The notes below the pieces were generated by a model, which made no database searches, was not told the origin of the DNA, and was given only the letters and a program-made list of their open reading frames with translations. From the IMG/VR virus record IMGVR_UViG_3300029319_000079, positions 1 through 51,835 of that record: a stretch of 51,835 nucleotides of DNA, one strand, 5' to 3'. This document shows, in pieces, positions 11,417 through 23,030 of the stretch (position 1 is the first letter of the stretch; each line of letters starts with the position of its first letter). The stretch is from a virus. The position numbers were made by a program, and so were the translations under genes.

Positions 11417-11445
11417 TTGACAAAAGAATAGTTATATGGTATAGT
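11417..11445 (+). promoter_or_regulatory. Promoter of a non-coding transcript
   Basis: TTGACA (11417-11422), 17 bp, TATAGT (11440-11445). No ORF follows until 11824, so it probably makes an RNA. Confidence 0.7.
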
Positions 11446-11451
11446 TATACT

Positions 11452-11560
11452 ATACAAAACAATATAACACGTTTTGCCATATAGTTGGCGTAGGTTCGCT
11501 CCCTTCGATTGCGGCAGGGGAGGGGACCAAAAACAAAAGAAACCAAAAAAAATTTTAAAA
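11452..11560 (+). ncRNA. Candidate small RNA
   Basis: The sequence downstream of the promoter is locally GC-rich in an AT-rich setting and can fold GGT...CTCCC (from about 11492) with GGGAG...ACC. It has no credible ORF. The 3' end is unclear; an A-rich tract and then the CGGAGG repeats follow. Confidence 0.4.
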
Positions 11561-11581
11561 ACCCAAAGCCAAAATTTTTCT

Positions 11582-11670
11582 CGGAGGTTTTTTCGACCCT
11601 CATAATGCGTCTCCGGAGGTTTATTCAGCATCCATAATGCGTGACGGAGGTTTTTAGCAGCATCATAATG
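11582..11670 (+). repeat. Three tandem CGGAGG...AATG elements
   Basis: Copies start at 11582, 11614 and 11645 (period 31-32 nt). Each reads CGGAGGTTT, about 13 variable bases and T-AATG-CG, with 21 nt from the first G of GGAGG to AATG in all copies. Single or paired copies recur at 15935, 17558, 20440 and 20472. Confidence 0.85.
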
Positions 11671-11767
11671 CGTCCCATCATTATTTTGAAATACAACATT
11701 ACATATATATGTATATAGAGCTGTATAAATCTATAGTATTACTTTAGATAAAATTTGGATTAAATAT

Positions 11768-11796
11768 TTGACATAATTAAAAATGTGTGAGATGGT
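11768..11796 (+). promoter_or_regulatory. Promoter for gene 11824-12057
   Basis: TTGACA (11768-11773), 17 bp, GATGGT (11791-11796). The leader AACAAACAAGGAAGG supplies the ribosome site. Confidence 0.65.
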
Positions 11797-11823
11797 ATAT
11801 ATAACAAACAAGGAAGGATATTT

Positions 11824-12057
11824 ATGGATATAAATATTGCTAAACAATTACTAGGCAGACAGTTCGACAAAGAGAACGAACACGGTGAGTATGAGTTCGC
11901 TATGCATTTAGGGGAGCTACTTACTGAGCCAACAGGTGAGGATGACATCACTGCTGAGGCTTACGACTTTCCTATCTTCTTTGATAGAGAGGGTGATGCT
12001 TGGGCAAGTGTGGAATATATATTAAAAAATATTCAACATATATACTTGACAAAATAA
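11824..12057 (+). CDS. Acidic small protein (77 aa)
   Basis: The product starts MDINIAKQLLGRQFDKENEHG and is rich in Asp/Glu. I do not recognise a family. It has its own promoter and ribosome site. The next promoter (12046-12074) lies across its stop codon. Confidence 0.7.
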   Translation: MDINIAKQLLGRQFDKENEHGEYEFAMHLGELLTEPTGEDDITAEAYDFPIFFDREGDAWASVEYILKNIQHIYLTK

Positions 12058-12074
12058 AGATTATATGAGATAGT
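12046..12074 (+). promoter_or_regulatory. Promoter of the 12080-12560 RNA
   Basis: TTGACA (12046-12051), 17 bp, GATAGT (12069-12074), overlapping the end of the upstream gene. No ORF with a ribosome site follows for 500 nt. Confidence 0.75.
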
Positions 12075-12079
12075 ATATA

Positions 12080-12560
12080 TAACGGCTTTTTGACAACAGA
12101 ATAAAGATAGATGATTTGATTGAGGGTTACTACTGAGACCGTAAAGTGTTCAGAGTATCGAAAAGAAATCACTTGCTTCAGACACGATATAGACCACGAG
12201 GCTTCCTAGGATGCTGACTGAAGACTAGCGTCACTCGAAGTCCAATATGAGCTTATCGAAACTACCTGCACAGGTTTGTCCTCGAAAGGGGAAGTTGCAA
12301 CTAAATCGGTGGGAACGCTCAATCAAGTCATTTATCCAAAGGTTTAACTATCTAAGTAGTAGGGTGTGATTAGGGGCATTGGGATTGTTCAAATTAATTG
12401 CCTAGTTGAGTTAACTAAATACTAGGACAACCATACTAACGGTCATAGCAATCGGTCACTTAGACCGAGCCTTGAATATAACAGAGGTGTCGAAACCTCA
12501 AATAGCGAATGAGTAGGCGAAACGAAAATGTTGCGGTTATATTTGTATACTACTTGGATA
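12080..12560 (+). ncRNA. Candidate large structured RNA (about 480 nt)
   Basis: The sequence has no convincing gene but many local helices: TCCTC-GAAA-GGGGA (12279-12292), CCTAGT/ACTAGG (12401-12406 with 12421-12426), TCGGTC/GACCGA (12452-12468), GAGGT/ACCTC (12484-12499). A closing 8-bp stem AATATAAC/GTTATATT (12475-12482 with 12536-12543) encloses the last of these. It has a dedicated promoter. It could be a GOLLD/ROOL-like giant RNA or a new class; a group I intron was considered but its core is not evident. Confidence 0.6.
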
Positions 12561-12578
12561 CTTAAATCTTTGGAATGA

Positions 12579-12608
12579 TTTGACATTATTTCAATTATAT
12601 GAGATAAT
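12579..12608 (+). promoter_or_regulatory. Promoter for gene 12616-12774, leaderless
   Basis: TTGACA (12579-12584), 18 bp, GATAAT (12603-12608). The ATG at 12616 is at the expected transcription start. Confidence 0.7.
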
Positions 12609-12615
12609 TATATTA

Positions 12616-12774
12616 ATGGAAATGCAAACACTAAATAAATACGAGAGGGTTTACTCTTGGCTTATCAACGAGCTAGAGCTAAACAAAATCAATCATCCTT
12701 CAGAGGATGTGCGAGGCTGGTTGGCTATGCTTCAAGAGAGCCTTGAATACAACCTCTCAAAATTTGAGGACTAA
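12616..12774 (+). CDS. Small hypothetical protein (52 aa)
   Basis: A helical, amphipathic protein (NKYERVYSWLINELEL). The start was set at 12616 because the longer frame opening at 12580 would begin inside the -35 box. The function is unknown. Confidence 0.65.
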   Translation: MEMQTLNKYERVYSWLINELELNKINHPSEDVRGWLAMLQESLEYNLSKFED

Positions 12775-12834
12775 GGTCTTCGGGGTTTGTAAGCACCTGT
12801 CAACAGAAGCTTACAGCCGCAAGGCTACAAACAG
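12773..12834 (+). ncRNA. Intercistronic hairpin element, copy 1
   Basis: The layout is GTCTTCGGGG, then GTAAGC (12789-12794), AC, CTGTCAACAG (12797-12806), AA, GCTTAC (12809-12814). A second hairpin follows (AGCCGCAAGGCT), then ACAAACAGAAAGG. The same architecture with a different but complementary 6-bp stem is at 18354-18392. Confidence 0.65.
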
Positions 12835-12875
12835 AAAGGCAATATTATCAACTATTAACTAAGCCGAAAGGCAGA

Positions 12876-12959
12876 ATGGGGGTTAAGTTGCTCTTATTAC
12901 TTAAACTTCTTCTTGAAGGTCAAGAAGACGAACAGAGTAATGATTCTGACGAAAGTTAG
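12876..12959 (+). CDS. Very small protein (27 aa), Leu-rich then acidic
   Basis: The peptide is MGVKLLLLLKLLLEGQED followed by an acidic Ser/Asp/Glu tail. A short hydrophobic helix could associate with membrane. AAAGG lies upstream. Its position between a structured leader and the gene at 13016 is the only other support. Confidence 0.4.
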   Translation: MGVKLLLLLKLLLEGQEDEQSNDSDES

Positions 12960-13015
12960 AGTCAAGCCCTACAGAGATGTAGGGTAAGTAAATCAAAACA
13001 GATTGGGGAATGATT

Positions 13016-13363
13016 ATGTTTAGAATCTTAGAAGAAGACGAAAAGCATTTTGATGATACTGAAGGTGTGACTTGTATTTACGGCATCTTTATGTTCATTG
13101 ATAGCGAACAAGAATTATTAGAAGAAATATTTGAAGTTAAATCTGCAACTGAATTAAAAGACTTTAGTTTCAGAAGTAGGCTGTTTGTTTCTTTTGATGA
13201 AGCAAATAGTATATTCCAGACTTTTGATGCTGGTTCTGTGGAACAAGCTGAGGAATTTTTGTTGGAACATATTTTCTTAAAAGAAGATTACAACGACTTA
13301 AATGAAACTCAAAAGTTTTTATACAACAGCTTACAAGTAGAAGAAAGATTGGAGACAGTATGA
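13016..13363 (+). CDS. Acidic hypothetical protein (115 aa)
   Basis: I chose the ATG at 13016 because GGGGA is 6-7 nt upstream; an ATG at 13010 is in frame. The product is rich in Glu/Asp/Phe with no known motif. A CCCTAC/GTAGGG hairpin precedes it. It overlaps the next gene by 4 nt (ATGA), so the two are probably coupled. Confidence 0.65.
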   Translation: MFRILEEDEKHFDDTEGVTCIYGIFMFIDSEQELLEEIFEVKSATELKDFSFRSRLFVSFDEANSIFQTFDAGSVEQAEEFLLEHIFLKEDYNDLNETQKFLYNSLQVEERLETV

Positions 13364-13542
13364 GTGACTGGACAGTTGCAGAACTAGTTGATGCAATACA
13401 GTATATAAGCGATAAGAAAAGTGTAAATATTTATCTTATGCCCAAAGACCACGAGAAAGAATATGAGCGTTTAGACATACACGCTGTAGGACTTGGTGAG
13501 GTCACTGGGGACAGCTTAGATATATTTGTTGAAAAAGCTTGA
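13360..13542 (+). CDS. Small hypothetical protein (60 aa)
   Basis: A compact alpha/beta-looking product (MSDWTVAELVDAIQYI, then SVNIYLMP). Unknown family. It is coupled to the upstream gene by ATGA, and its end overlaps the -35 of the next promoter. Confidence 0.65.
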   Translation: MSDWTVAELVDAIQYISDKKSVNIYLMPKDHEKEYERLDIHAVGLGEVTGDSLDIFVEKA

Positions 13543-13567
13543 CAAATATCTAAGTATGTGAGATAAT
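13539..13567 (+). promoter_or_regulatory. Promoter
   Basis: TTGACA (13539-13544), 17 bp, GATAAT (13562-13567), with leader AACAAACAAACAGAAAGG. Confidence 0.8.
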
Positions 13568-13597
13568 AAATATAACAAACAAACAGAAAGGTATATT

Positions 13598-13762
13598 GTG
13601 AAAACAAAAATATATACAGTTGAAAATATTGGTTATTTCTATTACAACATAGAAGCAACTAGCGAACAAGAAGCTATTGATAAGCTTCAAGGCTCTATTT
13701 TAGACCACGACCAATTTGAAATGGACACTAATCCAACAGTGGTGGAGGTATGTGATGCGTAA
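13598..13762 (+). CDS. Small hypothetical protein (54 aa), GTG start
   Basis: GTG follows AGAAAGG at 10 nt. The product (KIYTVENIGYFYYNIEATSEQEAIDKLQ) has the beta-beta-alpha look of small phage proteins in which a SEQEAI-type helix follows two strands. The function is unknown. It overlaps the next start by 8 nt. Confidence 0.65.
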   Translation: MKTKIYTVENIGYFYYNIEATSEQEAIDKLQGSILDHDQFEMDTNPTVVEVCDA

Positions 13763-14069
13763 GGAATTATGGGACATAGCTTGTGATAGATGGGACGAAG
13801 ATGACGCTAAGGCGTTATACAAAGTCTTTTCAGACTATTATGACGATGAACACTGGGACGAATTCTGTTCTTTGGCGTTTATCGGCACAGATAGAGACGT
13901 TGATGACTTTATCTTCGATGAATTTATTGAAAGATATGAAGTCGATGAGAGTATTGAGTTCTACCTTGACAGAGACAGAATTGTCTCTGACTGGGGCATT
14001 GATTACAAAAGAGAAGAAGTCACTACAGACGAAGGCTACACAAGAACCGTCGTTTGTAGGGAATTTTAG
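13755..14069 (+). CDS. Very acidic hypothetical protein (104 aa)
   Basis: About a third of residues are Asp or Glu, as in DNA-mimic proteins, though no family is recognised. The start at 13755 was chosen for the GGTGGAGGT ribosome site 4 nt upstream; the longer frame from 13716 has none. An acidic anti-host or DNA-mimic role is speculation. Confidence 0.65.
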   Translation: MRKELWDIACDRWDEDDAKALYKVFSDYYDDEHWDEFCSLAFIGTDRDVDDFIFDEFIERYEVDESIEFYLDRDRIVSDWGIDYKREEVTTDEGYTRTVVCREF

Positions 14070-14081
14070 ATTGGGGGAACA

Positions 14082-14351
14082 ATGGAAGACATTACAGTAG
14101 ATTACGAGTTAAAAAACGCTCTTAGTTTTAATGACAAAGAGTATTTAGCAAGACAATGGGCAATTGTATTACTTGATGGTTATTACAAAGACCAGATTGA
14201 TATCTTTGCAGGTTATATTGCTGATGCTTGGTCTCACGAAGGCAGTGGCGTTGAAAGATTTGAAGAAGATGTCAATGACTTACTTGATGATGCAGAGATG
14301 GGTGAAACTATCTTAAACTTTCTTAAGTTTGCACTTGACAAAAATAAGTAA
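14082..14351 (+). CDS. Acidic hypothetical protein (89 aa)
   Basis: A helical, acidic product with GYYKDQIDIFAGYIADAW in the middle. Unknown family. GGGGG precedes the start by 3 nt. It is the third gene of the unit driven from 13539, and its 3' end contains the next promoter's -35. Confidence 0.65.
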   Translation: MEDITVDYELKNALSFNDKEYLARQWAIVLLDGYYKDQIDIFAGYIADAWSHEGSGVERFEEDVNDLLDDAEMGETILNFLKFALDKNK

Positions 14352-14363
14352 GCGTGGTATAGT
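14335..14363 (+). promoter_or_regulatory. Promoter for the Api92-like gene
   Basis: TTGACA (14335-14340), 17 bp, TATAGT (14358-14363), then AACAAACAGAAAGG. Confidence 0.8.
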
Positions 14364-14389
14364 TAATATAACAAACAGAAAGGAATATT

Positions 14390-15046
14390 ATGCCCAACTG
14401 GAGCAGAAATAGAATAACAATGTATGAAAATTATGAGCTTGATAGCACTGATTTTTATAAGAACAAAGAAGGCAAACACGCCATAACTGACATTTATGAG
14501 CAGTTTGTTAAGGACATTACAGTAGTAAATAAAGAAGGTAAGGAATATTACAACCTTATGGAAGTAAATCCTACACCAGAAATACTTAGTAAGGTTCACG
14601 CAAGTAGCCCACCATACCTTGTCAGAGACAGGAAAACAGGTGAGTTTGTTTCTCAAAGTGTATGGGATATGGAAACAGAGGACAGGAACTTGTTCTATGA
14701 TACCAATACTCACCCAAAGCTTGAGAAAGTAGAAATTGTGGAAGGCACAGACATCTACAACGAACTTATAGAAAAGTATGGATGCCTTTCTTGGTATGAC
14801 TGGAATGTCAAAAACTGGGGAACTAAGTGGGAAATTACACTAGACAAAAGTGAAATCTCATTTGATGAGTATAACTTACAGTTCTATTGTGATAGTGCTT
14901 GGTGTCCACCAGAAGTATTACTACAAGACATTGCTGACAAATACAATGTCAATGTAGAGTGCTTCTACGAGATAGAAGGATATGGTAATGATGGCGTAGG
15001 TAAAGATACTTACGAGCCAGCTTCTTCACTAGAAGTAGAAGTCTAA
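14390..15046 (+). CDS. Api92-like / DUF1281-type ferredoxin-like protein
   Basis: The N-terminus MPNWSRNRITMY resembles the PNWxxN start of Api92-like phage proteins. The family's other landmarks follow: NLMEVNPTPEIL (about 55-66), YDWNVKNWGTKW (about 137-148) and FYCDSAWCPPEVL (about 165-177). The family is widespread in phages and plasmids; its function is not established. It has its own promoter and a strong ribosome site. Confidence 0.85.
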   Translation: MPNWSRNRITMYENYELDSTDFYKNKEGKHAITDIYEQFVKDITVVNKEGKEYYNLMEVNPTPEILSKVHASSPPYLVRDRKTGEFVSQSVWDMETEDRNLFYDTNTHPKLEKVEIVEGTDIYNELIEKYGCLSWYDWNVKNWGTKWEITLDKSEISFDEYNLQFYCDSAWCPPEVLLQDIADKYNVNVECFYEIEGYGNDGVGKDTYEPASSLEVEV

Positions 15047-15049
15047 CAA

Positions 15050-15310
15050 TTGAATAAAGCTAATTACTGACCAGATATTGTGTAGTGATGCACAAGATAA
15101 TCGGATAATGTGGCCTAATTAACCACACCTTTGATGGAGGAAATAGAAACGCAACGGTTTCCATCACGCAGGTCGGTAGGTAGCTTGTAGCACATAGGTA
15201 AAATACGTTTGTAATCAGTCGCTCTGAGAAAACTTACTGTGTGCTACAAGCTATGTAGGGCTGGAGGCTTACGCCGAGGACTACCACGGGCTTGCCCGTT
15301 GCCCTTGATA
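15050..15310 (+). ncRNA. Structured 3' region or RNA (about 260 nt)
   Basis: No ORF. Helices include TGATGGA/TCCATCA (15132-15138 with 15160-15166) and a perfect 14-bp stem (15181-15194 with 15240-15253). There is also ACGGG-CTTG-CCCGT (15286-15299), a stable CUUG tetraloop hairpin. It is probably read from the 14335 promoter as a 3' UTR, or released as a separate RNA. Its class is unknown. Confidence 0.55.
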
Positions 15311-15332
15311 GCAAAATAATTTATAAATTGAC

Positions 15333-15360
15333 TTGACTTATATTAGTTATGTGATATAAT
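15333..15360 (+). promoter_or_regulatory. Promoter of the 15367-15880 RNA
   Basis: TTGACT (15333-15338), 16 bp, TATAAT (15355-15360) with extended TATGTGA. No coding start follows. Confidence 0.75.
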
Positions 15361-15366
15361 TAGTAT

Positions 15367-15880
15367 AAGAAAGGTTGAGATAGCAGTGTAAAGCTATCGA
15401 AGCACTCACTAGGTGAAGATGCAGTATGCAGCTGTAGTAGCAATCGATGGACTTAGTAAGGAAGAATTAGACTAGGACAGAATAACTGGGGGAATAATTC
15501 TTAGACCCAGCCGCAAGCTGGAATGCATCTAAGATATGGAGGAGCCTTTACCATCGGGTAGAGAAAAAGGCGGACCCGGCTAGGAGATGAAGCAGCAATG
15601 CTTGCCAGTGTAAACCAAGTGGACAGGTGAGAGCCCTTCCCGCAACCGTGAGGTTGTTGAACTTGCAATAAGAGTTCTATAAGAGGTAACTGGATTGTGA
15701 CCGCCACCGTTATCCTACGAGTTGACCGAAAATGGAAGTCTAAGTAAACACAGTGAACTTCTTCTGGGGTGTATCAGACGAGTATTCGTTGGGGGTAACG
15801 ATGTACCCAGCGTCGAAAGTTTGTTCGATAGTTTTACACTGTTATCAAGCAATGAAGCTGGACCAGTGGTTTTTTAAGTC
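15367..15880 (+). ncRNA. Candidate large structured RNA (about 510 nt) with its own promoter and terminator
   Basis: The sequence is gene-free and G-rich relative to its surroundings. Helices include GATAGC/GCTATC (15379-15398), CCAGC/GCTGG, GCCTTT/AAAGGC (15544-15571) and AAGCA-GCAA-TGCTT (15590-15603). Further ones are CAACC-GTGA-GGTTG (15643-15656), GGGTA/TACCC (15793-15808) and TCGAA/TTCGA. It ends at CACTG/CAGTG plus a T6 run (15837-15875), a plausible terminator. GNRA loops and repeated junctions suggest an ornate RNA such as GOLLD or ROOL, or something new. Confidence 0.65.
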
Positions 15881-15934
15881 GCTGCTTCTGCAGCTGCCTT
15901 TCTTGTTTGGGCTGCTGGTACAGCACAGAATCGT

Positions 15935-15960
15935 CGGAGGTTTTTACAGACATCATAATG
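15935..15960 (+). repeat. CGGAGG...AATG element, copy 4
   Basis: The spacing is identical to the 11582 copies. Here GGAGGT can also pair with ACCTCC just after AATG. Confidence 0.8.
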
Positions 15961-16023
15961 ACCTCCCAATATTTCACGGACAAAATCTAAACCAAAACTC
16001 TAGATATTTTTTTATTATTTGAC

Positions 16024-16052
16024 TTGCTTTTTTTTATATGATGTGATATAGT
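16024..16052 (+). promoter_or_regulatory. Promoter for gene 16087-16290
   Basis: TTGCTT (16024-16029), 17 bp, TATAGT (16047-16052), then CAAACAAACACAGAAAGG. Confidence 0.65.
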
Positions 16053-16086
16053 ATATATATCAAACAAACACAGAAAGGTTAAAAAA

Positions 16087-16290
16087 ATGGCTGATTGGAA
16101 AATTGAATTAGCTGGTAAAGAATACCAACTACATTATCTAAATGACTTGGCTGATAGTCAAGCAACTGAACTCTATGAGTTGTTAAAAGAACTTATAGAG
16201 ACAGATTGGAATAACTATGCAATGCAGGACAATTACAGATTATATATCTGTGAAGTAGAAAGAGTTCTGGGTTCTAGAGGATTGTTGTAA
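16087..16290 (+). CDS. Small hypothetical protein (67 aa)
   Basis: MADWKIELAGKEYQLHYL, then an acidic helix. Unknown family. It is a monocistronic unit between two promoters with a good ribosome site. Confidence 0.65.
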   Translation: MADWKIELAGKEYQLHYLNDLADSQATELYELLKELIETDWNNYAMQDNYRLYICEVERVLGSRGLL

Positions 16291-16308
16291 AAAAACCTAT
16301 ATCATAAT

Positions 16309-16336
16309 TTGACAAATATAAAAGCTGTGATATAAT
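16309..16336 (+). promoter_or_regulatory. Promoter
   Basis: TTGACA (16309-16314), 16 bp, TATAAT (16331-16336), leader ACAAGAAAGGAAG. Confidence 0.8.
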
Positions 16337-16359
16337 GTATATATACAAGAAAGGAAGTT

Positions 16360-16680
16360 ATGCAACTATTAACTAAAGAGATACTAAATAAAACACCAGA
16401 CATTAGCGATGGTGAAACTAAACCAGAGCAGGTTAAAATTACGGCTAAGTTTTTTGACCCGACAGGTTCATTTACTTGGTATCTAACTGAAATTGATAAA
16501 AGTAATAACGATACTTGTTTTGGATTTGTGACAAGCGAATTTTGTCCAGATGGTGAACTTGGTTACTTTACAATAAGTGAGCTAGAGGAGACTAAAGGAC
16601 GTTTTGGCTTGGGTATAGAACGAGACAAGTTCTGGACTAGCAAAACATTAAAAGAAGTTATGGATAGTGTGGGTTATTAA
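16360..16680 (+). CDS. Hypothetical protein (106 aa)
   Basis: The central KFFDPTGSFTWYLTEIDK and FGFVTSEFCPDGELGYFTISEL segments resemble the DUF2958-type phage/plasmid fold (FDP-G-WTWY, then G-ELGYF-L-EL). This is a recognisable small family of unknown function found with antirestriction-type genes. It is the first of three coupled genes. Confidence 0.75.
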   Translation: MQLLTKEILNKTPDISDGETKPEQVKITAKFFDPTGSFTWYLTEIDKSNNDTCFGFVTSEFCPDGELGYFTISELEETKGRFGLGIERDKFWTSKTLKEVMDSVGY

Positions 16681-16709
16681 CCCACACACCATACAAAATT
16701 GGAGGAATA

Positions 16710-16883
16710 ATGGAAATTGTTGATAAAGAACATATTGAGGCATTAATGTCTAGAGTTAAAACTCTAAATGAAGAACTTGATTATTTGAGAAAAGTAAATG
16801 AGATTTTGTGGTCTTATCTACCTGAAAGTGATTATGAAATTAATGAAAGAATATCTAAAGAGATAGATGAGGTGGAGGAATAA
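16710..16883 (+). CDS. Coiled-coil mini-protein (57 aa)
   Basis: Heptad-like Leu/Ile spacing over residues 8-35 suggests a short coiled coil, with an acidic tail. The GGAGGA ribosome site is 4 nt before the ATG, and the stop overlaps the next start as TAATG. The function is unknown. Confidence 0.65.
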   Translation: MEIVDKEHIEALMSRVKTLNEELDYLRKVNEILWSYLPESDYEINERISKEIDEVEE

Positions 16884-17170
16884 TGAAACTAAAAGAATTA
16901 ATAGCAGAGTTAGAACATTTTAATAATAATGGACACTTTGATGAGATAGATGACATAGGAGATTTAGAGTTGTCATTTAAATTAATGGTTAAAAATACGG
17001 ATTTACAAGATGATGATATATGGGATATTGACTTGTCTAAACCAGAGATTATCTGTTCAACAGGAAATTTCTTTGTTGAATTTGGTATGACAGCAGAAAG
17101 CAACATACCTAATAAAAGTGATTATGTATATTACTTTAAAGATGTTCACCCAAATGAATTTGATAAATAG
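16883..17170 (+). CDS. Acidic hypothetical protein (95 aa)
   Basis: Starts MKLKELIAELEHFNNNGHFD, then an Asp-rich middle. Unknown family. It is translated from GGTGGAGG in the end of the previous gene. Confidence 0.65.
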   Translation: MKLKELIAELEHFNNNGHFDEIDDIGDLELSFKLMVKNTDLQDDDIWDIDLSKPEIICSTGNFFVEFGMTAESNIPNKSDYVYYFKDVHPNEFDK

Positions 17171-17172
17171 AT

Positions 17173-17201
17173 TTGACAAGATAAGAAAGGTATGATATAG
17201 T
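17173..17201 (+). promoter_or_regulatory. Promoter for the KTSC gene
   Basis: TTGACA (17173-17178), 17 bp, TATAGT (17196-17201). Confidence 0.8.
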
Positions 17202-17230
17202 TATAACATACCAAACAAAAAGGAGGTAAT

Positions 17231-17506
17231 GTGAAAGCATTATTTACAATAAACAAAGTAGCTAGAACAAACAGTTCTATGATTGCTTTTATAAAATATA
17301 ACAAGATTACTAAAAGATTAGTAGTTTGCTTTAGTCAAGGGGCTATGTATTCATATACAAATGTTCCTAGACAATATGCGAATATGTTGTTTATGGCTAA
17401 TAAAAACGGCTTATCTGTAGGTAAAGTCTTTATAGCTTTGATAAAAGACAATAAGGATATTCCTTATATGGCTTTAGGACAAGCTGAATTAGAATATAAA
17501 ATTTAA
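17231..17506 (+). CDS. KTSC-domain protein (91 aa), GTG start
   Basis: The sequence fits the KTSC fold: SSMIAFIKYN (about 15-24), then LVVCFSQGAMYSYTNVP (about 31-47), ending with SVGKVFIALIKD. The domain is common at the ends of lysyl-tRNA synthetases and in small phage proteins and is thought to bind RNA or nucleic acid, though proof is limited. AAAGGAGG precedes GTG. Confidence 0.8.
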   Translation: MKALFTINKVARTNSSMIAFIKYNKITKRLVVCFSQGAMYSYTNVPRQYANMLFMANKNGLSVGKVFIALIKDNKDIPYMALGQAELEYKI

Positions 17507-17511
17507 TCATC

Positions 17512-17547
17512 GGCCATAAGGGTTTTGGTAATTTTTACCTTATGGCC
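17512..17547 (+). terminator. Hairpin after the KTSC gene
   Basis: A perfect 10-bp stem GGCCATAAGG/CCTTATGGCC with a 16-nt loop. Only a weak T stretch follows, so it may be a terminator or a 3' stabiliser. Confidence 0.6.
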
Positions 17548-17557
17548 TTAGATTTAA

Positions 17558-17583
17558 CGGAGGTTTTTCGTGGTCTCTTAATG
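17558..17583 (+). repeat. CGGAGG...AATG element, copy 5
   Basis: Same 25-nt geometry. In this copy the variable part forms CGTGGTCTC/GAGGCCACG around AATG. Confidence 0.8.
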
Positions 17584-17607
17584 AGGCCACGGAGCCAACG
17601 GAGAAAG

Positions 17608-17691
17608 TATTTTGTAGCATATAACACTTATTGCAATAAGTAAAAAACAGTAACCTTAATGGCTAAGTTGTATGTTACAAAATATTTTTTT
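17608..17691 (+). terminator. Large-loop terminator-like structure
   Basis: TATTTTGTA (17608-17616) pairs with TACAAAATA (17676-17684), followed by a T7 run. An inner hairpin ACTTAT-TGCA-ATAAGT lies in the loop. It could end the KTSC transcript. Confidence 0.55.
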
Positions 17692-17701
17692 AAAAATAAG
17701 C

Positions 17702-17730
17702 TTGACAAAGTTTTAAAAGTATGAGATACT
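17702..17730 (+). promoter_or_regulatory. Promoter of a long structured leader
   Basis: TTGACA (17702-17707), 17 bp, GATACT (17725-17730). Confidence 0.75.
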
Positions 17731-17736
17731 TATATT

Positions 17737-18051
17737 AACAACAAAGAAAGAAGGATTTGAGAGTAAAGTTCCACAATGAGTAATGACTTATAAATGGATA
17801 CTCGCTCTACTCTCAAAGTTTGGGCTAACTGTGGTCTTTAAAGTTTCGAAACCTGTCGCACAGGGAAGAACGCTTGCAGTTAGCTACAAACAAAAGCTAC
17901 CGACAGGGAGCAGGGATTAACGGAGCCGTGTAAGTATCTGGAGAGGTGGGATAACGAACCCATAACTTATAAACCTCTTAATAACCAGAGGATAAACGGA
18001 AAGTTAATTTATCGGACTCCCAAAGTAGCTTACAAACAACAGGGAGAAAAA
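17737..18051 (+). ncRNA. Structured leader or RNA (about 315 nt)
   Basis: No ORF with a ribosome site. Helices: TTGAGAGTA/TACTCTCAA (17757-17765 with 17808-17816) enclosing GAGTA/TACTC, and GCTAACTG/CAGTTAGC (17824-17831 with 17877-17884) enclosing CCTGT-CGC-ACAGG. AGAGGT/ACCTCT and TGGG/CCCA follow. It runs into the ribosome site of the gene at 18052, so it could be a 5' regulatory RNA or a separate RNA. Confidence 0.55.
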
Positions 18052-18180
18052 ATGGAAAATATAAATTATGAATTAATCGGAGCTATATTTATCTCTATTA
18101 TGGCCGTAAGGTTTGCTTGGGATTTTATGCTTTGGGTTGAAAAATGGATTGATAAGTTTTCAAAAATATTTAATAAATAA
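18052..18180 (+). CDS. Small membrane protein (42 aa)
   Basis: One hydrophobic span (LIGAIFISIMAVRFAWDFML) is followed by a basic amphipathic tail. GGGAG precedes the ATG by 5 nt. It is preceded by the 315-nt structured leader. A holin-like or membrane-signal role is possible but unsupported. Confidence 0.6.
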   Translation: MENINYELIGAIFISIMAVRFAWDFMLWVEKWIDKFSKIFNK

Positions 18181-18182
18181 AC

Positions 18183-18211
18183 TTGACAAACTTTCAAACA
18201 TATGAGATACT
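18183..18211 (+). promoter_or_regulatory. Promoter, leaderless
   Basis: TTGACA (18183-18188), 17 bp, GATACT (18206-18211). The ATG at 18218 coincides with the expected +1, and no ribosome site exists. Confidence 0.75.
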
Positions 18212-18217
18212 AATATT

Positions 18218-18349
18218 ATGAAAACAAAAAATACACAAGGGGTTCTAGTACAAGAATTCACTAATACTAAAGTGGCTTGTACTTGTGGCCGTGGTAACAC
18301 ACACTTCCACAATAGTGGTAAGGGAGTTATCATAACACCTTTAGCTTAG
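18218..18349 (+). CDS. Small Cys/His protein (43 aa)
   Basis: CTCGRGNTHFH (residues 21-31) offers Cys and His ligands for one metal ion. The rest is unrecognised. The transcript is predicted to be leaderless from 18183-18211. Confidence 0.6.
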   Translation: MKTKNTQGVLVQEFTNTKVACTCGRGNTHFHNSGKGVIITPLA

Positions 18350-18353
18350 AATA

Positions 18354-18392
18354 AGTCTCGGGCTCCGTGGGTAGCTGTCAACAGAAACCCAC
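18354..18392 (+). ncRNA. Intercistronic hairpin element, copy 2
   Basis: The layout is GTCTCGGGCTCC, then GTGGGT (18367-18372), AG, CTGTCAACAG (18375-18384), AA, ACCCAC (18387-18392), ACAAACA. The core is identical to copy 1 at 12789-12814, while all mismatched stem positions are compensated. A TCGATA/TATCGA hairpin follows just before the next ribosome site. Confidence 0.65.
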
Positions 18393-18445
18393 AAACAACC
18401 TTCGATAAAAAAAACGGATGAAGAGAAACTATCGAAAGGTTAAAA

Positions 18446-18601
18446 ATGTTAGATACTACATTTAACAAATTCAATACTTGTCCTTATTGTGAAGAACAAT
18501 TAGACAAGCATTACAACAACAAAAAAATATTCTCACCAATTTACAACTCTATCGTAAATGTTTGCGAATTTTGTTGGTCAAATATGGATTTAGAGGATTA
18601 A
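18446..18601 (+). CDS. Zinc-ribbon mini-protein (51 aa)
   Basis: Two knuckles, CPYC (12-15) and CEFC (40-43), 24 residues apart, make a treble-clef or zinc-ribbon likely. GAAAGG precedes the start. It may bind nucleic acid or host protein; the target is unknown. Confidence 0.65.
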   Translation: MLDTTFNKFNTCPYCEEQLDKHYNNKKIFSPIYNSIVNVCEFCWSNMDLED

Positions 18602-18717
18602 ACCTCTAAGTCCGTATTCGAACATATGTTCGATAAATCGGAGAAGCTCCCACGGAGAAGTTGCTCCCACGGAGAAGTCCGACGGAGCGGCTACCCACTA
18701 TATCTAGTGGGCTCCGT

Positions 18718-18861
18718 TCAAACAACTATATATAGTTGGTTATTTTTTTCTAGTAGTTCCAAATCGGTGATATGTCCGAGAAAATCTCTCATCTCATCAT
18801 CTCCGTAAACATTCTCCGTTTCTTTATCTACTTTTGTATCTTTTGTATTTATTAATTTCAT
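18718..18861 (-). CDS. Small acidic protein (47 aa), antisense orientation, leaderless
   Basis: The minus-strand ORF MKLINTKDTKVDKETEN...DFLGHITDLELLEKNN starts 6 nt from its own GATAAT box. Its 3' end overlaps the plus-strand hairpin at 18723-18738. It is the only minus gene in this part. Unknown family. Confidence 0.5.
   Translation of the reverse strand: MKLINTKDTKVDKETENVYGDDEMRDFLGHITDLELLEKNNQLYIVV
18723..18749 (+). terminator. Palindromic hairpin with T-run
   Basis: A 16-nt perfect palindrome (CAACTATA and its complement) is followed within 5 nt by T7. It probably terminates the rightward unit ending at 18601. A second hairpin CCCACTA/TAGTGGG lies just upstream. Confidence 0.65.
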
Positions 18862-18867
18862 ATAAGT

Positions 18868-18895
18868 ATTATCTCACATTATTTATATTTGTCAA
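18868..18895 (-). promoter_or_regulatory. Leftward promoter, leaderless
   Basis: On the minus strand TTGACA (18890-18895), 16 bp, GATAAT (18868-18873). The ATG at 18861 is at +1. Confidence 0.7.
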
Positions 18896-18927
18896 GGAAT
18901 AAAATAAAAAATTATTTATAAATAAGC

Positions 18928-18956
18928 TTGACATAATTTCTATATAGTGATATAGT
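18928..18956 (+). promoter_or_regulatory. Promoter of the ArdC unit
   Basis: TTGACA (18928-18933), 17 bp, TATAGT (18951-18956). The first ATG (18963) lies 6 nt downstream. Confidence 0.75.
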
Positions 18957-18962
18957 AATAAT

Positions 18963-19040
18963 ATGATAAGAACAAACAAAGAACTAGACAAAAAAACCAG
19001 AAGGCTAGATGCCTTCGCTACAAACAAGAAGGGAAAATAA
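18963..19040 (+). CDS. Leaderless 25-aa leader peptide before ArdC
   Basis: MIRTNKELDKKTRRLDAFATNKKGK, a basic peptide that begins at the predicted +1 and ends 1 nt before the ArdC ATG. Its 3' half contains a GAAGGC/GCCTTC hairpin and the ArdC ribosome site. It could couple ribosome entry to ArdC translation. Confidence 0.45.
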   Translation: MIRTNKELDKKTRRLDAFATNKKGK

Positions 19041-19041
19041 T

Positions 19042-19944
19042 ATGAATAAAGATAGAGTTCAAGACTTAACAAACTTGATTGATGAAAAAATCGAAGCTTT
19101 GATTAATTCAAATGACTGGAAAGAATATCTAAAATTTGCTTCGGCACAATATAGATACAGTTGGAATAATCAATTTTTGATTTGGTTTCAATCTTCTGTA
19201 AGGGGTTTTGAAGCTACATATGTGCGTGGTTACAAGCAATGGGAAGCTATAGACAGAACAGTCAAAGCTGGTGAAAAAGCTATGTATGTTTTAGCACCGA
19301 TGTTGGCTCACAGATGTATTGAAAAAGATTGTAAAGCTAGAGCAAAATATTTTCGTGATGGTAAATATTATATTTGCGAAAAAGATAGCAATCACAAAGT
19401 TGGTAAATTCTTAACTGGGTTTAAAGATGTACCAGTCTTTGATATCTCACAAACAGAAGGCGAAGACATTCCACAAATTACTTTAAAGGATAAGTGCGAA
19501 AATGCTAAGCCAGAAATTTGGGATGCGTTGGTCTCACTAGCCGAAAGTTATGATTTCAAAGTTATTATTGGTAATGCAAAAGGTGCCGAAGGGTATTGTT
19601 CACACGATAAAAAAGAAATTGTTATTAGTAGAAATGCAGACTTTGGTTATCAAGTGAAAATATTAGCTCACGAAGTTGGTCATCTATTAATGCACAAAGA
19701 CATTACAGACTACCAACAACAAAGGGCAAGATATGAAACCGAAGCCGAAGGCGTGGCGTGGGTTGTATGTGAAGCCCTAGGCGTTCATAGTGCCGAAGAT
19801 AACTACAGCTTTGGTTACATTGCAACGTGGGGTAAAGATAACACTAAAGCATTAGTGAAGCAATCATTACAAACCATTACTAAGACCAGCCAAACAATTT
19901 TAGATTTTGTTGAAGCTAGGGTGGATGGGTTGGTCAAGGCGTAA
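19042..19944 (+). CDS. ardC: ArdC-like antirestriction protein with zincin metallopeptidase
   Basis: The N-terminal ArdC ssDNA-binding domain (about residues 1-130) includes YSWNNQFLIWFQ and VRGYKQWEAIDRTVKAGEKA. The C-terminal zincin domain has HEVGH at about residue 214 and a downstream glutamate in ETEAEGVAWVV. ArdC proteins protect incoming DNA from host restriction. I set the start at 19042 (AAGAAGGG upstream) and not 19009. Host defence evasion early in infection is the likely role. Confidence 0.9.
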   Translation: MNKDRVQDLTNLIDEKIEALINSNDWKEYLKFASAQYRYSWNNQFLIWFQSSVRGFEATYVRGYKQWEAIDRTVKAGEKAMYVLAPMLAHRCIEKDCKARAKYFRDGKYYICEKDSNHKVGKFLTGFKDVPVFDISQTEGEDIPQITLKDKCENAKPEIWDALVSLAESYDFKVIIGNAKGAEGYCSHDKKEIVISRNADFGYQVKILAHEVGHLLMHKDITDYQQQRARYETEAEGVAWVVCEALGVHSAEDNYSFGYIATWGKDNTKALVKQSLQTITKTSQTILDFVEARVDGLVKA

Positions 19945-19983
19945 AGCCTTGACTAGCTCAAGAAAAAAAACTTTATTTTTGAC

Positions 19984-20012
19984 TTGACAAGATTTAAAAG
20001 AGATGGTAATAT
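19984..20012 (+). promoter_or_regulatory. Promoter, leaderless
   Basis: TTGACA (19984-19989), 17 bp, TAATAT (20007-20012). The ATG at 20019 is at +1. Confidence 0.7.
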
Positions 20013-20018
20013 TATAGT

Positions 20019-20144
20019 ATGAGAAAATGCAAATGCAGAAAAATATTCTGGTCTCCGATGGGAGCACCACTCTGCGGAGAGTGCCTACGGAGAGAGCTCT
20101 ACGGAGCTCCGGCCGGAGAAAGGAAAGAAGCTTATGCAAAATAA
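20019..20144 (+). CDS. Cys-rich mini-protein (41 aa)
   Basis: MRKCKCRKIFWSPMGAPLCGECLRREL gives a CxC...CxxC zinc-ribbon-like unit. Codons are unusually GC-rich and contain repeated CGGAG/CTCCG blocks. It overlaps the next gene by 11 nt. A metal-binding regulator is possible. Confidence 0.55.
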   Translation: MRKCKCRKIFWSPMGAPLCGECLRRELYGAPAGERKEAYAK

Positions 20145-20412
20145 TTTAGTAAAATTGTGGAACCAAGTTCCACTAAATTTAAGAGACAGACTTGATATGG
20201 GTAGGAAGGTCAACGGTGACTATTCTGTTCATAAGGGTGGATATAGGCCTCTTAGGAAGATTGGTAAGTTCGTTAAGAACCATATCCCAATGGAACTAAG
20301 AGACGAGTTCATCCAAGAGTTCGTCACTAAAGATTTAGATTATTTTAACTCTAAATATAAAGAAGGTAGAAGGGGCAAGAGCAACAATCGTGATTGGTTC
20401 GGCCCAATCTAA
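20134..20412 (+). CDS. Basic hypothetical protein (92 aa)
   Basis: A basic protein (GRKVNGDYSVHKGGYRPLRKIGKFVKNH) of unknown function, with AGAAAGGAAAG upstream inside the previous ORF. It is probably co-translated with the Cys-rich mini-protein. Confidence 0.65.
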   Translation: MQNNLVKLWNQVPLNLRDRLDMGRKVNGDYSVHKGGYRPLRKIGKFVKNHIPMELRDEFIQEFVTKDLDYFNSKYKEGRRGKSNNRDWFGPI

Positions 20413-20439
20413 ACCTAAACTTTAGATGTAGATTTCCTT

Positions 20440-20497
20440 CGGAGGTTTTTAGGCCAAGCCTAATGAACCTTCGGAGGTTTTCTTATGTTGTCTAATG
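20440..20497 (+). repeat. CGGAGG...AATG elements, copies 6 and 7
   Basis: Two copies in tandem (20440 and 20472, period 32) with the same internal spacing as the others. They follow the stop of gene 20134-20412. Confidence 0.85.
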
Positions 20498-20504
20498 AGG
20501 CCAA

Positions 20505-20690
20505 AAACTTTTATCTAGAGTTTTACTTTAGATTTTAAAATTAGAACATTTGTTCGATTTGTGAAAATTTTCACAAGCGGAGTATCGGACTTCCCCATAT
20601 GTGCATATGAGCAATTTACAAATCTAAACAATTACTTTAGATTTTCTAAGACGTTCTCCGCACATTTTGAAAGCTTTGTCAAGTATATAA
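20505..20690. other. Non-coding stretch with palindromes and CTTTAGATTT repeats
   Basis: Contains GAACATTTGTTC (20544-20555), an 18-nt perfect palindrome TTGTGAAAA/TTTTCACAA (20559-20576) and CATATG repeated across TG. Repeated ACTTTAGATTT words occur near 20526 and 20632. No ORF. It is a candidate operator or protein-binding region. Confidence 0.5.
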
Positions 20691-22754: not shown

Positions 22755-22814
22755 ATGTTGTTTGTGATAAACAACTGTTTTAGCTTACTTTTATTCTACC
22801 ACCACTATATGTAG
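22755..22814 (+). CDS. Possible 19-aa leader peptide
   Basis: MLFVINNCFSLLLFYHHYM with an excellent ribosome site (AGAAAGGAGG, 4 nt). It overlaps a TTGTTT/AAACAA hairpin and ends inside the first iteron. It could be a real micro-peptide or an attenuator leader. Confidence 0.35.
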   Translation: MLFVINNCFSLLLFYHHYM

Positions 22815-22960
22815 TAGTACACTATTTATACTACCTATATCTGGTAGTTCGTTATTTATACTACTATATGTTGCGTAGTTCAAGAGATATACTACGGTAG
22901 TTCATTAAATAGACTACGGTAGTTCAAATCGTATACCACCGTAGTTCACCAGTTATACTA
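22796..22960. repeat. Iteron-like array of dyad repeats
   Basis: Units pair ATACTAC with GTAGTTC. Starts lie at 22828, 22858, 22889, 22911, 22933 and 22955 (spacing 30, 31, 22, 22, 22), with a related dyad at 22796. The 22-bp units have half-sites almost touching (ACTACGGTAGT); the longer units have an 8-9 bp insert. The regularity suits a replication origin, partition site or packaging-protein site. Confidence 0.8.
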
Positions 22961-23030
22961 AAACTATAAGCATTAACTATACCTATTAACTAAAAGCATA
23001 TAACTAAAGAAAGAGAGTATGATTTAAAAT

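Follow-up and report, generated by a model that had tools for sequence, protein, structure and literature searches.

A two-part repeat with constant, phage-specific spacing near the 3' ends of transcription units in a tailed phage and its relatives

The 51,835 nucleotides of the tailed-phage record IMGVR_UViG_3300029319_000079 of IMG/VR, here called the window, encode terminase, portal, capsid protease and capsid proteins at 28-34 kb. The left side holds replication and SSB-like genes, which are on the minus strand. From 11.4 to 21 kb the window contains many short transcription units, small genes and large non-coding stretches, and each transcription unit in this region has a strong TTGACA-N17-TATAAT promoter predicted from the sequence. 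Here, a two-part element with the consensus CGGAGGTTT-N12-TAATG recurs seven times toward the ends of transcription units. The element is real and conserved in related phages, and it apparently has not been described before.

A pattern scan of the whole 51.8 kb with CGGAGGTTT-N13-AATG returned seven matches, all on the + strand and at the positions given for them in a first-pass annotation of this DNA (Table 1); 100 dinucleotide-preserving shuffles of the window returned none. That annotation had described a 25-nt element ending in AATG. The copies and their spacing stand, but the length is 26 nt and the AATG widens to TAATG, which is common to all seven copies, such that the constant parts CGGAGGTTT and TAATG are separated by 12 variable bases. 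The sequence CGGAGGTT is confined to these copies and occurs nowhere else in the window. Among CGGAGG-to-AATG distances of up to 60 nt in the whole window, seven cases fall at 22 and four chance cases are scattered at 53-59; because the seven distances are all 22, the spacing is fixed and not free, and this check left the earlier observation intact. As a separate observation, the shorter word CGGAG is strongly enriched within the non-coding region at 11.4-23.8 kb, where the + strand has 22 occurrences versus 5.6 expected from base composition, with clusters outside the elements at 18639-18687 and 20075-20118 (enrichment region, 17558-20120).

Table 1 Element copies and associated features in the window
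Feature	Position	Strand	Remarks
Element E1	11582..11607	+	Exact match to CGGAGGTTT-N12-TAATG
Element E2	11614..11639	+	Pattern match
Element E3	11645..11670	+	Pattern match; E1-E3 form a tandem array with a 31-32 nt period
Element E4	15935..15960	+	Pattern match; 3'-terminal in the transcription unit of the large ncRNA
Element E5	17558..17583	+	Pattern match; in the 3' UTR of the KTSC-domain gene 17231-17506
Element E6	20440..20465	+	Pattern match; in the 3' UTR of the 92-aa ORF
Element E7	20472..20497	+	Pattern match; tandem with E6
Short non-coding transcription unit	11417..11760	+	Promoter 11417-11445, then G-rich 5' domain at ~11495-11533
Large structured ncRNA transcription unit	15333..16010	+	RNA at ~15380-15850; ends in E4 and a terminator-like hairpin at 15982-16006
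ORF of 92-aa basic protein	20134..20412	+	Homologs in G001, G036, G037, G042
Predicted 9-bp hairpin, CGUGGUCUC-UUAAU-GAGGCCACG	17569..17591	+	Spans variable part of E5; z -6.0 for the surrounding 101 nt
Predicted 10-bp stem, CCUUCGGAGG / CCUUCGGAGG with G.U pairs	20436..20477	+	Heads of E6 and E7; z -3.96

Every copy in the window is preceded by a gene or a non-coding RNA (ncRNA) and followed by an AT-rich hairpin or terminator-like stretch, beyond which a new promoter is found for all copies except the last pair, E6-E7; sigma-70-type promoters lie 5' of the elements at 11417, 15333, 17173 and 19984. Judged by this order of features, the copies lie at ends of transcription units, as first proposed. 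The element is used in mRNAs, among them that of the KTSC-domain gene preceding E5, in ncRNA and in a dedicated ncRNA array: the 3' part of the short non-coding unit consists of an A-rich linker, E1-E3 and a terminator-like hairpin at 11727-11756.

Relatives were taken from IMG/VR and, from the sample series, are presumably marine (coordinates marked L246, L260, L261 and L265 refer to G001, G036, G037 and G042, respectively). G001, a 71.8 kb relative, holds one exact copy at L246:2111, where it follows the homolog of the 92-aa open reading frame (ORF), and a diverged tandem pair at L246:13493 and 13526, which adjoins a palindromic stretch (AGAACATTTGTTC, TTTGTGAAA..TTTCACAA) also found after E6-E7. 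Five further records (G036, G037, G041, G042 and G027) hold diverged units of the form YGGAGTAT-N-TAATG, in which GGAGTAT replaces GGAGGTT in the first four and the single G027 copy is of the G036 type; a backward-read control pattern had no match in the GGAGTAT search. The G027 copy repeats unit G36_b and was left out of the final set, which comprises 29 units from six phages (seven from the window, three from G001, ten from G036, G037 and G041 together and nine from G042). All 29 are in sense orientation and lie either 3' of a stop codon or toward the distal end of an ncRNA, and the earlier observation thus also stands after a search of related phages. The short ncRNA with its own promoter is conserved between the window and G042, where the counterpart at L265:1530-1800 holds two units, and the element units form the repeated 3' half of this shared RNA. 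A hidden Markov model built on all 29 units added no convincing unit when run against the other relatives examined. The scan of viral contigs with an exact 14-base pattern, from which only multi-copy or syntenic matches were kept, gave 102 single scattered matches that we treat as chance, and that of genome contigs gave one tandem-pattern match in an archaeal metagenome-assembled genome, likely also chance, and no capsid relative.

The most unusual property of the element is that a constant length is combined with a free spacer and that this length differs between phages. The seven window units and two of the three G001 units have an offset of 21 from GGAG to AATG; all ten units of G036, G037 and G041 have 19, and eight of the nine G042 units have 18. 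The offset is therefore constant per phage, with two exceptions, although the spacer sequence is nearly unconstrained and, to judge from G037 against G041, likely hypervariable locally between orthologs. The position relative to genes is also recurrent, in that the element comes after the 92-aa ORF in all five phages in which this ORF was clearly found (the window, G001, G036, G037 and G042). A weak homolog in G038 (E 2.6e-4) has no element after it, and in G041 and G027 the element is present and the ORF absent from the record examined. The 92-aa protein had no match in Pfam, PHROG, PDB or BFVD, and its AlphaFold model (pLDDT 87) gave no significant fold match.

Folding predictions give hairpins for many units, of two types. 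In one, GGAG pairs with a downstream CUCC (E4, E6 with E7, G36_a, G42_3), as in E4, where GGAGGT is able to pair with ACCTCC located just past AATG; in the other, the spacer pairs with sequence past UAAU (9 bp in E5, 7 bp in G42_9). Many units have a paired GGAG in these predictions, and several of the predicted stems need G.U pairs. When the 3' flanks (the sequence after TAATG) were swapped between units, predicted stability fell, from a mean of -8.5 for the real pairing to -6.9 (sd 0.42); without the left flank, none of 5000 permutations was as low as the real pairing (p<0.001), and with it p was 0.013. At 18 loci the sense strand folded better than the antisense strand (mean z -1.9 vs -1.2, p 0.018). 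Partial co-variation is seen in the 3' untranslated region (UTR) of the 92-aa ORF, where the changes between G036 and G037 before the first unit (CTTCAG to CTCTAG) preserve a 10-bp stem. These predictions lean toward RNA over DNA but are not decisive.

The first-pass annotation had offered three readings, namely a launch site for tiny ORFs, a ribosome decoy and a binding site for protein or RNA. A functional ribosome-binding site with start codon was rejected: GGAG lies 18-21 nt from AATG versus the 5-9 nt needed, and the ORFs after AATG are not conserved. The element is not a start site because this distance is too long, the frames vary between phages and between tandem pairs, unit G42_5 has AATA in place of AATG, and the differences between G036 and G037 (L260:1423-1578 vs L261:10398-10553) in the overlapping frame are mostly non-synonymous. 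In-frame 10-codon ORFs between E1 and E2 and between E6 and E7, which end at the next TAA, would suit a tiny-ORF start or reinitiation unit in which TAATG serves as overlapping stop and start, but the frame does not continue from E2 to E3 or in half of the tandem pairs found elsewhere, and the ORFs 3' of AATG share neither sequence nor length while the offset is 21, 19 or 18 nt depending on the phage, making this reading highly improbable. Similarly, the peptide encoded by CGG AGG TTT NNN4 TAA in all seven window copies (RRFxxxx-stop) was rejected: codon 4 of the G001 copy is an in-frame TAA, and other phages use other frames. The decoy, in which GGAGG would capture 30S subunits without productive initiation, is kept as a rival, albeit an unlikely one. 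GGAGG is a strong complement of the anti-Shine-Dalgarno (anti-SD) sequence, an AUG lies downstream and elements occur in non-coding transcripts; however, the relatives retain only GGAG (GGAGT, CTGGAGT), many units have GGAG in a predicted stem, and a decoy would not require a strictly conserved TAATG at constant distance. Among known elements, stoperators and the start-associated sequences (SAS/ESAS) of Cluster K mycobacteriophages come nearest to the present one. The SAS are likewise oriented dispersed repeats with an SD-like AGGAG core and unknown function (PMC3203893), but they precede true start codons of conserved genes by 3-7 bp, whereas the present elements come after genes and have no conserved ORF; membership in the SAS (a 13-bp GGGATAGGAGCCC-like repeat) was rejected on both sequence and position.

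A binding site is the best remaining of the three early readings, and we tentatively favor a model whereby the element is a bipartite, oriented signal of 3' UTRs and ncRNAs that acts as RNA and serves as the docking site for an RNA-binding factor. The signal would sit in the distal untranslated part of selected transcripts, i.e. in the 3' UTRs of small early genes and at the 3' ends of ncRNAs. The parts contacted in this RNA tag would be GGAG(G)-U-rich and UAAUG, and the variable segment, often folding into a hairpin, would set their separation. The tags would be bound by a factor of fixed reach that, because the spacing is phage-specific, is probably phage-encoded and diverged between phages, and binding would control the fate of the RNA via its stability, 3'-end processing or co-localization. 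What we observe is the repeat with its fixed spacing, sense orientation, 3' position, conservation in relatives and partial co-variation; recognition as RNA and not DNA, reading by a protein and the consequence of binding we infer. Several points weigh against this model. A rigid double-stranded DNA site would more readily account for a spacer of exact length and unconstrained sequence; predicted structure is at shuffle level in E1-E3, E4, both G001 loci and the 'b' units of G036 and G037; few units carry the permutation signal (E4, E5, E6, G42_1, G42_3, G42_9); 3' regions generally fold well, and the folding was compared with swapped flanks, antisense strands and shuffles; and no binding protein was identified.

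Recognition at the DNA level is a serious though doubtful alternative, in which a phage regulator would bind this asymmetric two-part site within short intergenic gaps and halt elongating RNA polymerase, so that orientation follows transcription. The stoperators of Cluster A mycobacteriophages (L5 and relatives) are such short, asymmetric, intergenic and transcription-oriented repeats dispersed over one genome (PMC9283540, PMC6550527), and a monomer with two domains reads the asymmetric site in an orientation that matches transcription (PMC9283540). In agreement with a site of this type, the spacing is exact per phage, the tandem period of 29-33 nt corresponds to about three helical turns, and the element is asymmetric and of single orientation, with all 29 units in sense and intergenic or non-coding. 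However, stoperators are contiguous 13-bp DNA sites, number more than 20 per genome, also occur at promoters and are bound by the immunity repressor, whereas the element has two blocks 12-16 variable bases apart, and a phage has only 7-9 of these sites, each close to the 3' end of a transcription unit and none found at promoters. No repressor was recognized among the window genes scanned. Moreover, the spacing differences of 1-3 bp between phages would turn the blocks relative to each other around the helix, and the sense-strand folding bias and the G.U-containing stems argue against a DNA site.

ECF-type promoters have two short blocks at constant spacing and a T-rich spacer start, features that the element shares if GGAGGTTT is taken as the -35 and TAATG as the -10 of a promoter for an alternative or phage sigma factor. 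This is very unlikely, given that most elements already have an ordinary sigma-70-type promoter on their 3' side, past terminator-like hairpins, that the spacing varies between phages and that the elements are 3' in units that already own promoters; Sigma70_r2 (sigma-70 region 2) was found in none of the six phage records, with control genomes positive. Type III toxin-antitoxin RNAs contain tandem repeats, and CsrA binds GGA in hairpin loops. Similarly to ToxI and CptI repeats, the element forms ~30-nt tandem RNA units in a small non-coding transcript with its own promoter, which could suggest antitoxin-like repeats that bind or neutralize an endoribonuclease. Yet the units are not near-identical repeats, their interiors being wholly different, single units tag unrelated mRNAs and no adjacent RNase toxin was found, so that we give this reading hardly any weight; ToxN (PF13958) had no match in the six records, and the control genomes were likewise silent. 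CsrA/Rsm-sequestering RNAs also carry several GGA-containing motifs within one ncRNA, but in the element GGAG is often in a stem and not a hairpin loop and UAAUG follows as a second block at constant distance; no CsrA family member was found in the phage records, controls being positive. An integron-type attC or integrase site was rejected, PF00589 (tyrosine recombinase) being absent in the six records, which are possibly fragments, and present in the controls. An antisense guide role of the variable segment was also rejected, with most of the 29 units at chance. The variable segments of W_E3, G36_a and G42_3 have complementary matches of 10-11 nt elsewhere in the sequences searched (nominal p 0.00-0.03 among 29 units), and the two matches from G041 reflect strand handling, the segments having matched their own sites.

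The surroundings of the element hold further RNAs and repeats. RNAs resembling that at 15380-15850 were read at L246:1290-1735, L260:660-1110 and L265:5460-5900; a long terminal stem closes this second large structured RNA, its internal stems seem to vary in compensatory fashion, and the 92-aa ORF is usually directly downstream. Another large ncRNA lies at 12080-12560 (L246:2460-2690, L260:2080-2360, L265:7220-7500 and, on the minus strand, L262:4640-4430); its blocks GTAAAGTGTTCAGAGTATCGAAAAGAAA and CTTATCGAAACTACCTGCACAG are kept in otherwise diverged phages, and it has no Rfam match. No Rfam family reached the gathering score in the window, L246, L260, L261, L213 or L214, and exact scans with two pieces of the neighboring ncRNAs matched only in G001. 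Matches to alpha_tmRNA (RF01849) below threshold at 12653-12817 and 18273-18395 stem from a hairpin with the loop ACCTGTCAACAGAA / AGCTGTCAACAGAA, and similar hairpins occur in L260, L262 and L265. Small domains resembling tRNA-Ala or the tRNA-like part of tmRNA (GGGGCUG..CAGCUCCAC, a G3-U70 type pair and the T-arm GGGGTTCRACTCCCC) lie at L246:7212-7292, L260:3674-3752 and L265:8761-8840; ARAGORN, run on L246 and L260, did not call them. LexA-like palindromes (CGAACATATGTTCG, AGAACATTTGTTCG) at 18617-18634 and 20541-20558, also present in L213, L214, L246, L260, L261 and L265, recur 30-80 nt 3' of elements or within the same 3' regions. Finally, a tandem 22-nt palindromic array (GTAGTTC..ACTAC) at 22800-22970 precedes the terminase region and resembles sequence found in many relatives, and a search with the ArdC protein gave no relatives.

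Dispersed, oriented and genome-specific phage repeats such as stoperators and SAS have been pointers to unusual regulatory proteins. The element described here lies at transcript 3' ends, is present on mRNAs and large structured ncRNAs and has a spacer of constant length and free sequence. We speculate that it may belong to a new class of RNA tags at the 3' ends of phage transcripts, with two blocks whose separation is constant to the nucleotide in each phage and varies between phages, and with a co-evolving phage-encoded reader that would mark early mRNAs and structured ncRNAs for a common fate. If found, this reader would provide a handle on how the unusually RNA-rich early region of these presumably marine phages is coordinated.

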